Positions 32,899 to 44,674 of a DNA stretch of 49,212 nt are shown here, piece by piece. The stretch comes from Alphaproteobacteria bacterium (GTDB lineage: Bacteria; Pseudomonadota; Alphaproteobacteria; UBA9219; RFNS01), in assembly GCA_009927055.1 (NCBI GenBank), contig RFNS01000157.1, positions 1-49,212 on the forward strand, read 5' to 3'. The notes beneath the pieces are model-generated. The model saw nothing but the letters and a program-made list of their open reading frames with translations, had not been told where the DNA came from and searched no databases. The number at the start of each line of letters is the position of its first letter. The stretch's first letter is position 1. The position numbers were made by a program, and so were the translations under genes.

Positions 32899-33552
32899 AT
32901 GAAAAAACTCGTTCTTCTTCTTGCACTTTTTGCCTTGCCCGCTGTGGCCGAAGAAACCATCGGCGCCGAACCTGCCAGCCTTGTCAGCGCAGGGGCCGAG
33001 GCGAGCCAGGCCGCCAAGGTTCAAAGCTTTATTCAAAAGCTGGGTGATCAGGTTGTGGCCATTTTAGGGGATAAAAGCCTAGATGAGGCCGGACGCAACG
33101 AAAAACTTCGCCGCGTGATGCGTGACACGTTCGATCTTCCCACCATTGGTAAGTTTGTGCTGGGCCGCAGCTGGCAAACCGCCACCCCTGACCAGCAAAA
33201 AGAATATATGCGCTTGTTCGATAAACTGGTCATCAGCATTTATTCTGAGCGTTTTGCCCTCTATTCAGGCGAGAAAATGACAGCAAAAACATCAACACCC
33301 CAGGGCAAGCGCGACTTTCTGGTGATCAGCGAAATCGCCAACCCCAAAAACCCCAACAAACCCGTGAAGGTTGATTGGCGCGTGCGCGATTTTGGAAGTC
33401 GTCTGGGCGTGATTGATGTGGTGGTGGAAGGCGTGAGCATGAGCGTGACCCAGCGCCAAGAATATCAAAGCGTTATCCAGCGCAACGCCGGGGCCATTCA
33501 ACCCCTGCTCGATTTGATGAAAAACCGCTTGGAAGGCAAGGCTACTGACTAG
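32899..33552 (+). CDS. MlaC/Ttg2D-type periplasmic phospholipid-binding protein
   Basis: MlaC-family proteins carry phospholipids between the outer membrane and the MlaFEDB complex of the inner membrane. The 217-aa precursor begins with a signal peptide (MKKLVLLLALFALPAVAEE, cleaved near AVA). It has the family pattern of an N-terminal helical part with RRVMRDTFDLPTIGKFVLG, then VDWRVRDFGSRLGVIDVVVEGVSM. ATG 32899 is chosen because TAAGG lies eight bases upstream and the signal peptide follows at once; the longer frame overlaps folC. No mla transporter genes are adjacent. It converges on an orphan gene with an 11-base overlap. Confidence 0.92.
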   Translation: MKKLVLLLALFALPAVAEETIGAEPASLVSAGAEASQAAKVQSFIQKLGDQVVAILGDKSLDEAGRNEKLRRVMRDTFDLPTIGKFVLGRSWQTATPDQQKEYMRLFDKLVISIYSERFALYSGEKMTAKTSTPQGKRDFLVISEIANPKNPNKPVKVDWRVRDFGSRLGVIDVVVEGVSMSVTQRQEYQSVIQRNAGAIQPLLDLMKNRLEGKATD

Positions 33553-34117
33553 GCGAGATAATTGGCATGCCTGGCTGATATCCCCATATCATCTGGGCGC
33601 GCCAGCGGGCTGTGGGGTCTTGAAACAGTTCGGCTGCCCGTTCGGGGTTATCCCTCAACTCTCTTTCAAGTTTTTCGGGCAGTGTTTCGTCGTCGTCTCG
33701 GCGGCACAGACTGCACGCCACAGTGCCAAAGCCCGATGATCCACCACCCGACGCATGCATGCACATCGCCATCAGCTGCTTTTGATAAGCCACATCGTTT
33801 TCCTTGCCCACAGCGGCCCCCAGAATCTTGACTGTCTCCAACGCATAAGCCTGCTTCAAAACTCCTTGAACCTCCCCACCCTTCTGATACGCCTGCAAAA
33901 CCCCCGCCACACAAAGGGTGAGGGAGAGGGCAATGATTTTCAACGTCCCTTCGGTGGATGATCCATTTCTGAAAAGAAAAAAATTGCCAAGAATACTGAT
34001 AAATTCGCCAACAGTTTCTTTCTCGCGCTGAAAATCGCAGCGCAATCTGTATCTGATTGATCGTCGATACCTGAGAAGATGAGCAATCGGTTTTTGTTGG
34101 GCGGGCGCTGGCATCAT
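33542..34117 (-). CDS. Unrecognised small membrane protein, third gene of the orphan operon
   Basis: I do not recognise this protein (191 aa from ATG 34117). A basic N-terminal third (RYRRSIRYRLRC) precedes one hydrophobic segment (about 58-76). The part beyond it contains three cysteines (119, 135, 138), the last two in a CSLC pair, and an acidic C-terminal section. The start is not certain: the longer frame would overlap the preceding gene by 41 bases, whereas ATG 34117 leaves a ten-base gap. No Shine-Dalgarno is visible for either, so translation may be coupled. It is the last of three genes on this strand. Confidence 0.55.
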   Translation of the reverse strand: MMPAPAQQKPIAHLLRYRRSIRYRLRCDFQREKETVGEFISILGNFFLFRNGSSTEGTLKIIALSLTLCVAGVLQAYQKGGEVQGVLKQAYALETVKILGAAVGKENDVAYQKQLMAMCMHASGGGSSGFGTVACSLCRRDDDETLPEKLERELRDNPERAAELFQDPTARWRAQMIWGYQPGMPIISPSQ

Positions 34118-34127
34118 GCAGGGAGGT

Positions 34128-34847
34128 CTAAGTTTGGTTACACCCTCCAAAAGCGTGTTGACGCGCATGTTCTAGCCACTCAGCAGCATTGGGCCCACTG
34201 CTCGGATGCGTTGGAATGGGCTTTATTTCAAAAACTGATACTGAGGGTGCGACACTCCCAAACGAGGCAATGTTCCCCTCAGCATCTTGGACACGCATGA
34301 GATATTGAATACCTCCACGTGCATCTTTTTTTGCCACAAAAATCTGTGCTGTGCCGGCCATGTAAATGTCAATAACACCATCGGAACGCAAGCCCATCTG
34401 GACAAGACAGCACGGCGCTGCAGTTAATGCTGACTGAAAAACGGTCATTTTGCTTCTTGCAACACCCGGTGCGGTATGAGCTTCATCATAACCAAATTGA
34501 CCGACTGGCCACATCCAACGATGCAGAAGTTTTCTACTCATTGCATGAAATGTTTCTAAGGTCGGGTTATTGTCAAACTCGGCAAGAGCATCCAAGGTCA
34601 TTTGATATTCTGCCTCTAAATCAACAATCCCTTTCTCGGCGAGCTTGTTTGTAAAGTCTGTATGATCTTCAACAGACATAAGATTCAAAGCATCTGCAAA
34701 GTTTGAAATGATGATTGGATAAAAAGGCATGAAATCCAACATCCTAATTTCTTGGTGAAGATTGTGCATGCTAACCTGGGCATTAGCCCCTGCTGACTGT
34801 CCGCCAGAGCCAGAAAAATCTTTGATAGAGTTATATACGTTCACCAT
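34128..34847 (-). CDS. Unrecognised protein, second gene of the orphan operon
   Basis: I do not recognise this 239-aa protein. It has no clear signal peptide or membrane segment. It starts with a Gly/Ser/Ala-rich stretch, is aromatic- and methionine-rich in the middle (LLHRWMWPVGQFGYDEAH), and contains a CC pair (APCCLVQMG). The strand-like second half (VIDIYMAGTAQIFVAKKD) suggests a compact beta-rich domain. GGGGAG lies about seven bases before the ATG, a strong translation signal. It follows the 735-aa gene by 26 bases. Confidence 0.65.
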   Translation of the reverse strand: MVNVYNSIKDFSGSGGQSAGANAQVSMHNLHQEIRMLDFMPFYPIIISNFADALNLMSVEDHTDFTNKLAEKGIVDLEAEYQMTLDALAEFDNNPTLETFHAMSRKLLHRWMWPVGQFGYDEAHTAPGVARSKMTVFQSALTAAPCCLVQMGLRSDGVIDIYMAGTAQIFVAKKDARGGIQYLMRVQDAEGNIASFGSVAPSVSVFEIKPIPTHPSSGPNAAEWLEHARQHAFGGCNQT

Positions 34848-34873
34848 AATACTTCTCCCCTGAAGTTAGATAT

Positions 34874-37081
34874 TCAACCTTTTTGAAGCCCCGCCTGTTT
34901 TTGTCGTGCGGCCGCACGCATTGCCGCAAAACTGCCCTGTGCTTTAACTTCTGCACTGGCGGCGGATTTAATGTCAACCCCACATAGGCAAGGACCTGTA
35001 CCACAGCGACGGCATGTAGGGCCAACTTCTTGTTTCCAAAGTTTTTGGATGGTTGATTGAATGTGAGTGCGCACACTTTGACCAAATTGCTGAAACCTCG
35101 AACCTTCATCAGTCTTAAAAAGCTCAAGAACTGTCTTGGCCTGCTTAAAGGCGGCACAGCAGCCTTTGGTGCCGTCACACCCCTTGCACGGGTCAAAAAC
35201 TTCCTTAATCGCTTTTGAAAACTCCTGTATTTTCTCACGCCCCGCATCCATAGCCTGGCTGACTTTTGTTCCCGCCATTTGATACAGCTGGACATAGCCG
35301 TTGTGGACATTCTCGGCCACGGCATGAAGTCCGTGGTGGGCGGCCTGTGTAAGATTCACTGTGTGTTGCACAACTCCCTGTGCGGCCCCTTGCGCTGCCT
35401 GTTGAACAGTGGTGGCAACTTGCGCGACAGTGACCGAAACATGCTGCACGGCCGACGATGCTTGGGCGGCAACGAATGACGTCACACCCCCTGCAGCCAC
35501 AGGAGATGCCACAGCCGCCGTGGCACTCTGCCCCACAGTGGTGGATGCCGGAGACACAACAGAAAAAGAAGCGGCCGATGGTTGTGCGGGCGCCGCCGCC
35601 GCAACAGAAGCCACCACCCGTGCGGTTGCAGCGGCCCCGCCTGGGCCAGCCGATGCGCTGATGCTTGCCGCAGGAGATATGGCCACAGCCGCCGCAGGAG
35701 CAGCAACCCCCGAAACACCCCATGATAATGATACCGCCACAGCCGCCGCAACCCTGGTGACTGTGGAAGTTGATGCAGCCCCCCCTGTGGCTGACAGCGA
35801 AACTATTCTTGGTGACATTGAGCCACTTTGGGCACTCAGGGTGGCTGACACCACAGGCGCGCCCGCTCGGCCCGCCAGCGAGACAACATTACCCGTCACA
35901 ACACTTGTGCCGACAGGCTGGCGTGCCGCGCTAAGGGAAAGAACAACCGGCGCACGCCCCAAACCTTGGGGTGTCGCGGCTGACGCGGCCACAGCCTTGG
36001 TCTGTAAAGGCAAAGCCGATTTCATGCCCAGCGGTGTTACTCTAAGGCCTTCGACCCGCACAGGAATTGACGGCCCTGTTTTGAGTGATTGAGACGCCAC
36101 AAGGCGCAACGATGCCCCAACCTTGATCACATGTGTGGCCGATGCTGTTGATACAGGCGCCTTTGCCACCACCGCCCCGTTCACGCCGGCCAGTTTGCCC
36201 AGTTGCTGTGTGGGTTCGCGCAGGGTGGCGCTGATTTTGATCAGCTGCGCGGCAACGGCAGGAGATCTCGACGCCATGTTGGCGGCCATGCGCCCCAATT
36301 CGGCACTGCCCTGAGCAACCGCTTGGCCAAGAGACGCGGCATGGGCACGAACAGCCCCCCCCGCCACCGTTCCGGAAGCATGGGCCGATTCCAGCGAGGC
36401 GACATCAGTTTTTTTTGCATCGGCTTTTTGTTGGCGCAACGCCTCCAGCGCGGCCAGAAGCTGCCCCAGCGGCTGTTGGATTGATTTAAGAATTTGTATC
36501 AGCGCGGTTCCGGCTTCCATGCTTTGGTTGGCCGCCAGCTGCGCCTGCGCCACGGCCGAATGAATTTGCTGCGCCATTTTTTGGATTTCTGTGATGCGAT
36601 TATGTGTCAGCGGCGCGTCATCATCATCAAGGTGTTGATAAACTTCTTGCAGCGCTTCGTGCAAAATAATCAACACCGCCCGCGGGCCAGCGTGGTGCTG
36701 CAAATAATCTTGAATTTGCTGGGCGGTGCCCGACACGCGCACCTGCTTAGCTTCATCAATAATCGCCACTTCGTTATGCTGGCCCACGGCCACGTCGCCA
36801 TCACTCACCACATGGCACATCACATCATCATCGGCCGCGTGGGGCACCCGTTGCGCCAAATCGGCGGCAATGGTGGCGGCCTGCAGGCTCAACTCCTCCA
36901 GCGGCAGATGCGGCGCAAGCACCTGAAAAGTTTTGAGCAACTCTGCCTCAACCGCCGATGGCCGCGTTTGAATGTGGCAGTTAATGCCCTGATTATGAAC
37001 CGCATGCACCCACATCTGCACCGGCAAGGAGTGGGGCAAAGCCGTGGTGTTTGGCCCTTCGGCCAGCGCGGGAAAAGCCAT
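34874..37081 (-). CDS. Unrecognised Ala/Val/Ser-rich protein with two C-terminal cysteine clusters
   Basis: I do not recognise this 735-aa protein. Residues 1-130 look globular with acidic stretches. About 130-230 is Gln/Ala-rich and probably helical coiled coil. About 250-600 is dominated by Ala, Val, Ser, Thr and Gly, with loosely repeated VSLS-type strands at intervals of roughly 12-23 residues. The C-terminal part has two cysteine clusters: CKGCDGTKGCC (632-642) and CRRCGTGPCLC (690-700), the kind of pattern that can bind a metal. No signal peptide is evident. GAGG lies four bases before the ATG. A promoter overlapped by a Fur-type box precedes the gene, so iron-controlled expression is likely. 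Function is unknown. Confidence 0.75.
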   Translation of the reverse strand: MAFPALAEGPNTTALPHSLPVQMWVHAVHNQGINCHIQTRPSAVEAELLKTFQVLAPHLPLEELSLQAATIAADLAQRVPHAADDDVMCHVVSDGDVAVGQHNEVAIIDEAKQVRVSGTAQQIQDYLQHHAGPRAVLIILHEALQEVYQHLDDDDAPLTHNRITEIQKMAQQIHSAVAQAQLAANQSMEAGTALIQILKSIQQPLGQLLAALEALRQQKADAKKTDVASLESAHASGTVAGGAVRAHAASLGQAVAQGSAELGRMAANMASRSPAVAAQLIKISATLREPTQQLGKLAGVNGAVVAKAPVSTASATHVIKVGASLRLVASQSLKTGPSIPVRVEGLRVTPLGMKSALPLQTKAVAASAATPQGLGRAPVVLSLSAARQPVGTSVVTGNVVSLAGRAGAPVVSATLSAQSGSMSPRIVSLSATGGAASTSTVTRVAAAVAVSLSWGVSGVAAPAAAVAISPAASISASAGPGGAAATARVVASVAAAAPAQPSAASFSVVSPASTTVGQSATAAVASPVAAGGVTSFVAAQASSAVQHVSVTVAQVATTVQQAAQGAAQGVVQHTVNLTQAAHHGLHAVAENVHNGYVQLYQMAGTKVSQAMDAGREKIQEFSKAIKEVFDPCKGCDGTKGCCAAFKQAKTVLELFKTDEGSRFQQFGQSVRTHIQSTIQKLWKQEVGPTCRRCGTGPCLCGVDIKSAASAEVKAQGSFAAMRAAARQKQAGLQKG

Positions 37082-37120: not shown

Positions 37121-37148
37121 GTGATAGCATATTGAGAATGATTGTCAA
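37121..37148 (-). promoter_or_regulatory. Promoter of the orphan operon
   Basis: On the minus strand TTGACA (37148-37143) and TATCAC (37126-37121) are spaced by 16 bases. Transcription would start near 37114, giving a leader of about 33 bases before ATG 37081. The Fur-type palindrome covers the -35 element and most of the spacer, the classic position for a repressor. Confidence 0.6.
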
Positions 37149-37151: not shown

Positions 37152-37173
37152 CGATCTTCGGCCGCCAAAAAAA

Positions 37174-37187
37174 TATGTTATAACATA
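37174..37187. promoter_or_regulatory. Perfect 14-base palindrome upstream of msrA
   Basis: TATGTTATAACATA is a perfect inverted repeat about 40 bases before ATG 37227. It contains TATAAC, a possible -10 box for msrA. It may be a second operator or only an AT-rich promoter core. Confidence 0.4.
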
Positions 37188-37226
37188 ACAGAATGTCAAG
37201 CGCTCCTTTTTGTGTTAATAACGGGT

Positions 37227-37832: not shown

Positions 37833-38492
37833 TTAACCCGCAACCCGCTGGTATTGACGCCAAAACCAGCTGGGGGGGTATTGCGGTGGTGTTGTGTCTG
37901 GAACATCCCTGCAGATTTGAAGAATTTTTGCCGGAATGCCAGGAATGGCTGGCCCGCAAACTTTAACCTGCTTGGCAGGATTATGCGCCTCGCTGGCTTT
38001 GCAAAAAGACGCGCCCATCTCTCCACCTAAAAAATCGCACGCCCGACTATTGACAGGCTGCCACAATCTCTCATCCCACCATTTTGTGCTCTCTGCGGCT
38101 TTTTGACTTGCCGCCAGTTTATCTCTCGCCTCTTGTGCTTTTAATTTTGCTTTTTCTCTCTCTGTCATGCAGCGCAGACGCTCTGCCCCTGTCGCGTTTG
38201 CAAGCTCACAATACCTTTTGCCCGTCCATTCAGACATATCGTTATAAGCTTTTTGAGTGCTTTTCCAGGCCGCGATGGTTCCATCAATGCTTCTGGAGAT
38301 AACATCACGCCGGTCCTGTAAATATTGCTGGCTGGCGTGCAGCGTATAGACCGTAGCCAGCCAAATGCCCGTGCAGGCCAGCGCAGATAGGGCCAAGCTT
38401 GTGGCCACCTTATGCCTGCGCAGAATTCTTTTTGCTTCTCCAAATGTCGTGCTTCTACTGGGCGTGGGCCCATCAGGAACATTTTGATCCAT
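37833..38492 (-). CDS. Unrecognised single-TM protein with six extracytoplasmic cysteines
   Basis: I do not recognise this 219-aa protein. A basic cytoplasmic N-terminus (AKRILRRHK) precedes one membrane segment (about 28-51). The rest should face the periplasm: a helical, Lys/Ala/Glu-rich coiled-coil part (about 55-135), then a section ending in Pro-rich PPQYPPSWFW. Six cysteines follow the membrane segment, an even number that fits disulfide bonding. No good ribosome binding site precedes ATG 38492. It lies convergent with msrA, ten bases apart. Confidence 0.6.
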   Translation of the reverse strand: MDQNVPDGPTPSRSTTFGEAKRILRRHKVATSLALSALACTGIWLATVYTLHASQQYLQDRRDVISRSIDGTIAAWKSTQKAYNDMSEWTGKRYCELANATGAERLRCMTEREKAKLKAQEARDKLAASQKAAESTKWWDERLWQPVNSRACDFLGGEMGASFCKASEAHNPAKQVKVCGPAIPGIPAKILQICRDVPDTTPPQYPPSWFWRQYQRVAG

Positions 38493-41962: not shown

Positions 41963-44674
41963 GTGCTTGAGACCATTAAACAGACCATTAAAACTTTGAT
42001 TAATTTTAGAACTGCCGCTTTGCTCACAGTCACATCGATACCAGCTGTGACTATTGCGGCGGCTAGAGGAAATAGATATGCGCTGGAAGCCATCAGCTAC
42101 ATTCCAGGTGGGCCTCAGGCATTAAAATTTATCATCAACAACAAAATTTTAGAAGGACTCGCCGCCGTAGCTTCTGTCGCGACGGCCAGCCTTGGCTACT
42201 ACGCCTTTAAGCAATATCTCGATGCAAGAAGCTATATCAGACGCTATAAGAATGGTGAAATAAAAGGTCCGAGCTTGATTTCTGATGCTGCTCGCAGCCC
42301 TGTCGCTGCCCTTCATACGCATGTCGATCGAATACACAAAAGTCTTGGCGACACAGTGACTTTTTTCACTGATCGCGACCGTACACTCGATGTTGTATCG
42401 CTGGGGCAGTTTGGTCATTTGGTCAAAACAACAGTCGCCAATGATCCAATGCAAATTGTGTTACTGCATGCTGAGGATGCTGACACATTAGCTAGAGCGT
42501 TTGGTTTTCCTCACGATTCTTCCAGAGCGGGTGGCCGAGTTGAAATTATTCCTTTCAACATCAGCGATGTCAACGATCCTGATCGCGCGTTGGAAGATGT
42601 TTTGGCTGGTTTTAGACGCTTACGATTTGAGCCAAAACTTGATAATAATGCAAAAGTTGAAGTGATTGATGGCGTCAAATATATTCGCAATCAATATTTC
42701 TGCGCTGTCATTGAAAAAACAGGGATAAATGATGGCGAAAAATCGGAAGATGGCTATAGCGTCAAAATTTATGTCAAGAATCCTCCAGGAAAAAATTTAA
42801 TGGCCATTCCAGAAACGGGAGAAACACAAGGACTTGTGGAGGAAGTTGTCCTTAAAAAATCATTGGGATTATTAGATACTCCCGATGACACCATTCCAGT
42901 CAACTTTGTAAGAGGGTGGCTGGCAGATTACACCCAGTTGCAGCGTGAAATTGCATCGGGACTTTCGAAAGAAAGTGCACTAGCAAGAGTGACAAGCTTG
43001 GCACAAGCTGTGGGAAAAGATGCGTTGCATTCCGTCAAAGATACTGCCGATGACATGACTCGCGCGTCAGCCTTGGTTGACCTTGCATTCAAACTGGCCA
43101 CAGGCAATCTGCCCGATTTTGCTGGCAAGGCCGCCAGAGGGTTTATTGGCCGCATCATCAAACGCTATGTTGACAGCAATACCGGAGCGGTCAGAGCAGA
43201 CGAATTCACCCTGAAAGCAGGCACTGTTATAAGCAGAATCGCCAAACCTTTTGCGGGGCCCACAGGCCTAACTCTTGAGGCACATCCTAGTGAACTGCAG
43301 AAAGCCATTGAAGATAGAACATTAGTCGTGTCAAGCATGGCAACCCTTGTGCCTGCCGCAAAAAGGGTGGCCGGACATACTGATTTTACCTCGCATATAA
43401 ACAACGGTTCCATCCCGATACTTGTTGATCGGAGAGTGATTGACTACATCAGAAATGGTGTGGGCACTCCCACAGCCGGCACAGTTTCTATCACTGGAAG
43501 CACAGGTAATACTGTTGCGCATACAACGCGCACTGGTGGATACACTCAAGCAACATTTAGACTCCAAGATGGGAGAGATGTTTCTGTCATGGTTAATCCA
43601 TTGGGCAGCAATGCTTTTCATTGGATGCCCGATGAACAAGATTCTGAGCGCCGCGCAAAAAGAAGCGCTGCTGCCGGTAGAGAGAGTCCTGAGTTTATGG
43701 AACAACTCTACAATTGTGTACTGAAGCTCCAAGGAGCAAATGCAGTACAACAGGGGTGGTTAGATTCTTTCACCACTGAAATGCAGGAACAAAGCAAGCC
43801 CGTTGAAAGAAAAATATCACTCTCTCCCGCACTTAAACAAGTGAACAGAAATGATAAGAAATACGTTGTGCCGGCTCCAACAGGTATCAGGTTGTTTTTT
43901 GCAACAATCACTGGAAGTAGAACAGGAGAAGGTTTGAATGAGGCTCTCTTTAAGAGAGATGTTGCGCAAGCAAGAGAGAAATACCAAAAAGCGTTAAACC
44001 GCTATAACGACACATTCAAAGCAGCCGATGACGCATGGATCAAAAAAGTGTTGGCTGACCCACAGCACCCTTACCGTTCTGCTGTTAGCCAGAATAGTGA
44101 TGGGACTTACTCGGTTGACGTGGCGAAGTTTACAAACAGTGATGACTTACCGCCAAGCCGTCATGCTGCGAATGTTGAAACATTCAATGCAATTCTCAAG
44201 GCACTTATTGAAAACCCTGCGTGCAGCATTCAAAACATCGAGAAAAGAATGCATGGCACTTATATCGGCCTTGCTTCTGCTACCGGCAGTGATGGCTCTG
44301 CTAACTTTGAAAGCGCAGAAAACAGAGCAAAACGCAGTGGCATTTTCTCTGCCGCTTTAGATTCTATTAACAACAAAGAAAATAAGCTTGTGACCGTCAT
44401 GATTGGTGACACTGTTTATGTGTGCAAAGGAACTGATAAAATTACGTTGTCGAATGGCCAAACCATCAGCCTTTATGATTTTGCCACGAACAAAACCAGC
44501 GGTGGCACAATGGCTGTGCCTGACAGTGACTTTGAATCAGTCATCAAACAAAAGGCGGTTGCAGTTATTGTTGAAACAGAGGCGGATAGAATAAAACTTC
44601 TTAATCCCACACCCGCTGCTCCAACGGCAGGTGCTGGTGCCGCTATTGCTTCCCCTGCGCCACGAGCTGCTTAA
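41963..44674 (+). CDS. Unrecognised 903-aa protein with two N-terminal membrane segments
   Basis: I do not recognise this protein. Two hydrophobic segments (about 17-34 and 62-81) are followed by a long, mostly polar body of about 800 residues without obvious repeats or catalytic motifs. Mixed alpha/beta text ([18 protein letters not shown]), a lysine-rich helical part ([17 protein letters not shown]) and a Pro/Ala-rich tail (final 20 residues) can be seen. The frame starts at GTG 41963 with GGAG seven bases upstream. The DNA looks more AT-rich and uses AAA, GAA and TCT-type codons more than flanking genes, suggesting separate ancestry. It converges on nrdR with a four-base overlap. A large envelope or secreted effector-type protein is possible but unproven. 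Confidence 0.75.

Follow-up and report, generated by a model that had tools for sequence, protein, structure and literature searches.

Between an HpnM/MlaC-type gene and msrA, an alphaproteobacterial draft genome carries three consecutive minus-strand genes for which a first-pass annotation could name no known family. They raise the question of whether they are expressed together and what their products might do. The window analyzed here is the whole 49,212-nucleotide stretch that contains them (contig RFNS01000157.1). The conserved flanks were as the annotation had described them, and the family databases likewise bore it out: none of the three products gave a meaningful match in Pfam, NCBIfam, PHROGs, or PADLOC. 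Ordinary searches with the three products against 58 related genomes (three from the same family) found no match, nor did searches with genes 1 and 2 against GTDB r220, viral contigs, and the PDB, or with gene 2 against plasmids and phages. A match of gene 1 to an apolipoprotein family (Pfam, E = 0.0015) lay far under the cutoff and was rejected as an effect of composition or chance; weak Pfam matches of genes 2 and 3 were put down to the same causes, and a gene 2 match in G009 was discarded as weak (E = 0.08). AlphaFold models built from the single sequences of genes 1 and 2 were of low confidence (mean pLDDT, 46 and 40) and uninformative. No PADLOC model pointed to phage defense, and the only trace of a phage origin in the PHROG scan was one subthreshold match, of gene 3 (E = 0.096).

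Gene structure of the locus

Genes 1 and 2 each have a positive coding signal in their own frame (0.23 and 0.09 bits/codon, respectively) and negative values in the other five frames; they are separated by 26 nucleotides. The N-terminal part of the gene 1 product appears to be mixed α/β-like, with long predicted helices, and its middle part is of low complexity and rich in Ala, Val, and Ser, as judged from composition and the low-confidence model. Both Cys clusters of this protein are C-terminal. The feature coordinates are collected in Table 1.

Table 1. Genes, product motifs, and promoter elements of the locus (window positions)
Feature	Position	Strand	Description
Gene 1	34874..37081	-	735 aa; ORF and coding signal
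Gene 1 Cys cluster 1	35156..35188	-	Residues 632-642, CKGCDGTKGCC
Gene 1 Cys cluster 2	34982..35014	-	Residues 690-700, CRRCGTGPCLC
Gene 2	34128..34847	-	239-aa compact protein; ORF and coding signal
Gene 2 Shine-Dalgarno	34855..34860	-	GGGGAG, 7 nt before ATG, read from sequence
Gene 2 C-terminal motif	34140..34169	-	Residues 227-236, HARQHAFGGC; contains H[A/S]xxH
Gene 3, redrawn	33542..33943	-	Inferred TTG start; 133 aa, signal-peptide-like N terminus, CSLC
-35 hexamer, gene 1 promoter	37194..37199	-	TTGACA; promoter scan
Candidate -10 hexamer, gene 1 promoter	37172..37177	-	CATATT; promoter scan
Zur box	37176..37190	-	TGTTATGTTATAACA; spacer between -35 and -10, gene 1 promoter
Fur-like box	37133..37147	.	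TGAGAATGATTGTCA; palindrome just downstream of promoter

The first-pass annotation had joined all three genes in one operon, with gaps of 26 and 10 nucleotides. The first gap stands. The second requires gene 3 to begin at the ATG at 34117, where the coding signal is almost nil: in the original ORF (34168-33542, minus strand, 208 aa) the first ∼75 codons carry little coding signal, and the segment from this ATG to ∼33944 scores -0.005 bits/codon and lacks the codon-position GC pattern that the downstream part has. Gene 3 likely starts instead at the TTG at 33943, which would widen the gap to gene 2 to about 184 nucleotides. So redrawn, it probably encodes a separate small exported protein, and no counterpart of it was found in the two related operons described below (G001 and G006). 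Joint expression as originally proposed is therefore kept for genes 1 and 2, with gene 3 a doubtful member. We regard genes 1 and 2 as a probable operon because of the 26-nucleotide gap, the strong ribosome binding site on gene 2 that had already been noted, one shared promoter with metal-regulator boxes, and the recurrence of a large and a compact protein behind a Zur box in two relatives.

Two further genes in the window were noted in passing. At 37833-38492 (minus strand), flanked by msrA and a gene resembling hopanoid phosphorylase (HpnG, below cutoff), is the gene for a 219-aa protein that matches no family and has a predicted membrane segment; the gene at 41963-44674 (plus strand) encodes a protein of 903 aa, lacks a Pfam or NCBIfam match above cutoff, and has a codon bias that is weak for the window. 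Elsewhere in the draft genome, L006, L018, L019, and L023 (G000 contigs C14, C16, and C301) encode phage-structural-like proteins with a differing codon style; these contigs may be phage or foreign DNA that was binned into it.

Candidate Zur and Fur sites upstream of gene 1

The space between gene 1 and the divergent msrA is 145 bp long. The single upstream promoter named in the first-pass annotation was recovered on the gene 1 strand as a sigma-70-like promoter (TTGACA, 16 to 18 nucleotides, CATATT or TATTTT; 10/12 match); the hexamers alone are weak evidence, since the scan finds three sites versus 2.0 in shuffled sequence. The annotation had not mentioned the regulatory sites, and most of the clues to function lie there. 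The sequence TGTTATGTTATAACA is the second best Zur-box match in the genome, and TGAGAATGATTGTCA is the genome's best match to TGAGAATNATTCTCA, with one mismatch. When the 145 bp were shuffled by composition, a Fur box with at most one mismatch appeared with P = 1e-4 and the exact Zur core in 0 of 20,000 shuffles; the motifs had been chosen after the sequence was seen, and these controls were run after they had been noticed.

Is TGTTATGTTATAACA the Zur box of this order? Its exact core, TGTTATNNNATAACA, occurs at two sites in this genome (reversed control, 0) and at 17 sites across the 33 genomes of the order (reversed control, 6). Genes beside the core sites, named by reading their sequences, include znuA (L083, L085, L087, L093, L094, and L095), znuC (L088 and L091), and TonB-type receptors (L089, L090, and L092), and several zur-like genes adjoin core sites in relatives. 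Because it precedes znuA, znuC, and TonB-receptor genes, we take the motif to be the order's Zur box. Published Zur boxes include GATATGTTATAACATATC of the Rhodobacter group (PMC2706843), and in the Vibrio cholerae verA promoter, whose response to Zur and zinc has been demonstrated, this very 15-mer is the predicted Zur site (PMC8248653). The layout of the promoter recurs as well: TTGAC followed after 2 to 8 nucleotides by the box on the coding strand is found at five of six znuA promoters (the exception, L094, has a gap of 19 nucleotides), at the gene 1 promoter, and at L015, L096, and L097, with a chance expectation of 0.8% for this spacing of TTGAC; the layout is missing from the TonB and znuC sites. 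In this genome itself, no Zur box with at most one mismatch turned up at a znuA gene, which confines the validation of the motif to relatives. Zur-box sites in G032 (contig C147) and G005 (contig C36) were judged likely to be chance. Taken from these comparisons, Zur control of genes 1 and 2 is very probable.

The genome encodes two proteins of the FUR family, one Fur-like (L013) and one Zur-like (L014); the best NCBIfam match of the latter is Zur, with an E value of 1.8e-22 and a score below the model's cutoff (79.8 of 167 bits). A Fur-like protein and a box with one mismatch are thus both present, as expected for a Fur regulon, and the Fur-like box suggests a second, iron-responsive input. 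Upstream of the G001 and G006 operons the best Fur-box match has five mismatches in both, so that the iron input, if real, would be specific to this genome.

Two other sites in the genome deserve mention in their own right. Its sole perfect Zur box, at L015:1501-1515 (G000:C169:1785-1799), lies upstream of a gene (L015:1529-1924) for a 131-aa Cys-rich membrane protein beside an lpxC-like gene; the best family match of this protein is TM_HPP (E = 0.043, below cutoff), and a new metal membrane protein under Zur control is one possible reading. At L010:1501-1515 (G000:C140:2902-2916), a response-regulator gene is preceded by TGATAATCATTATCA, a palindrome of the classical Fur type.

Two alternatives concern the boxes themselves. 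At 39% GC, the intergenic stretch is AT-rich and might produce both boxes by chance, and a consensus match alone is not function; the shuffle values given above and a -35 spacing like that at znuA make this scarcely credible. The boxes might also control msrA, with the operon an unrelated orphan set, since the 145-bp region is common to msrA and gene 1 and Fur-family regulators are known to act on oxidative-stress genes. The arrangement of the -35 hexamer and Zur box faces gene 1, however, and points away from msrA. Zur boxes stand at two other operons of the same build with no msrA nearby, and at 17 other msrA loci of relatives, the 300 bp lying upstream of the match contained no Zur or Fur match better than four mismatches. 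From these msrA upstream regions and the direction of the promoter we assign the Zur box to the operon, to which both boxes probably belong; we consider control of msrA very improbable.

Related operons in two relatives

Could the pair have gone unseen in relatives by divergence? Gene order offered no help: accD-folC-mlaC is conserved in several relatives, and the genes after mlaC vary among them, so no orthologue can be named by position. The first-pass annotation had proposed co-occurrence of the three families in relatives as a check; ordinary searching finds none of them there, and with the Zur box plus tail motifs as a guide, diverged partners come to light for genes 1 and 2 but not for gene 3. 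In G001, a member of the same family (L097), two Zur boxes are followed by genes A (194 aa), B (639 aa), and C (222 aa). G001_B is Ala-rich, with a C-terminal CGGCGRADCPYCG; A and C are paralogous (BLASTP, E = 2e-7), and C is Cys-free. The gene order here is compact-large-compact with two boxes, versus large-compact at the present locus. In G006, from another family (L096), two Zur boxes precede genes for a 680-aa protein and then a 219-aa protein that ends near CRKCG. The 680-aa protein (L096:4261-6303, minus strand) carries HG(A/P)GCTCPICMPR twice, at a distance of 74 residues, and this repeated motif may bind metal. The boxes of G001 and G006 are not independent support, since both operons were found through the Zur box.

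The predicted products of the three operons have a common build: a large protein of low complexity whose C-terminal part carries a Cys cluster, accompanied by a compact one with H[A/S]xxH at its end. The likeness is confined to the tails: the large proteins show no similarity in their N-terminal parts, and no whole-length similarity was significant. The last 60 residues were compared by local alignment against shuffles, with P values uncorrected for the number of pairs. The gene 1 tail (Cys cluster 2 region) matched that of G001_B with P = 0.0005, and gene 2 matched the G006 219-aa protein with P = 0.001, G001_C with P = 0.008, and G001_A with P = 0.05; gene 1 and the G006 680-aa protein gave P = 0.10. 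G001_B against the G006 680-aa protein, the G006 219-aa protein against G001_C, and the other pairs showed no excess over shuffles. Each of the four compact proteins has H[A/S]xxH within its final 32 residues (probability in shuffles, ∼0.006 each); among 34 other genes of the window, none has it at its end. A profile of the four compact proteins, run against 59 genomes, matched in three, all its own members, so G012, of the same genus as G006, has no detectable compact protein; the G001 and G006 compact proteins had no match among plasmids. From these features, we infer a common ancestry of the three operons.

A candidate zinc-scarcity operon

The reading we prefer, with moderate confidence, is that genes 1 and 2 form a Zur-repressed zinc-starvation operon for two fast-evolving zinc-binding proteins. 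On the evidence of the box, its position, and the comparative context, Zn-loaded Zur would occupy TGTTATGTTATAACA, between -35 and -10, and block transcription when zinc is plentiful; when zinc is short, the block would be lifted and both proteins made, which look unrelated to each other, a large one with Cys clusters and a compact one ending in H[A/S]xxH(..C). The protein bodies would evolve very fast while the tails keep their Cys/His motifs, and these tails would bind zinc, such that the proteins capture, hold, or hand over the scarce metal. The tails of genes 1 and 2 do contain Cys/His clusters of a kind suited to a zinc site, which is suggestive, and we put metal binding by the tails at a little better than even. 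Zinc capture or delivery as their task is a tentative proposal. Doubtful as a whole, yet worth stating, is the fullest version: a hitherto undescribed zinc-scarcity system of two proteins in this order, Zur-induced, in which hypervariable bodies and conserved metal-binding tails would make a joint protein-based zinc scavenger or reservoir, invisible to homology and with relatives revealed only by the regulatory site.

Fast-evolving bodies, conserved C termini, long low-complexity linkers, and a patchy occurrence would also fit a Zur-controlled exported effector, toxin, or surface-protein system for metal scarcity, with the conserved tails as sorting signals, and Zur-controlled genes beyond zinc transport exist (PMC8248653). 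The tails, however, are Cys/His-rich and unlike a known sorting signal, genes 1 and 2 have no evident signal peptide, and secretion-system genes are absent beside all three operons in the DNA read; we think export unlikely. Quite improbable, too, is the view that genes 1 and 2 are orphans of unrelated functions whose likeness to the G001 and G006 genes is a coincidence among Ala-rich, Cys-containing proteins. It draws on the lack of significant whole-length similarity and on the fact that only some tail pairs exceed shuffles, but it would leave to chance the same Zur box, promoter layout, and large-plus-compact make-up, a motif common to four of four compact proteins, and tail P values of 0.0005 to 0.008.

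How would a Zur-repressed operon of this kind compare with known systems? The Zur regulon, for example, that of Caulobacter crescentus, comprises znuABC and TonB-type zinc receptors (PMC4176598). The present operon shares with it the form of the Zur box and its place within the promoter, and in this order the same box precedes znuA, znuC, and TonB-receptor genes, whereas genes 1 and 2 encode neither transporters nor receptors, and their products fall into no Pfam or NCBIfam family. ZepA of Anabaena is a Zur-controlled zinc exoprotein with His-based zinc binding, so that a protein, and not a small molecule, captures the zinc; its mature form is ∼27 kDa, it carries both a signal peptide and PEP-CTERM, and its conservation spans phyla (PMC10957091). 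The likeness lies in Zur control, predicted here, of proteins of the cell's own genome. The products of genes 1 and 2, by contrast, are hypervariable, and when their sequences were read against the published description (PMC10957091), none of the ZepA traits (signal peptide, PEP-CTERM, or H-X2-9-H-F/Y-H) was found in either. In the V. cholerae verA operon of VSP-II, the identical 15-mer stands ahead of lineage-specific genes, but the products are an activator and chemotaxis proteins (PMC8248653), and we claim no similarity of products.

If the proposal is correct, a regulatory site would group genes that are orphans by homology and give them a testable function, and their products would be a new, fast-evolving class of proteins with which bacteria, besides transporters and receptors, meet a shortage of zinc.
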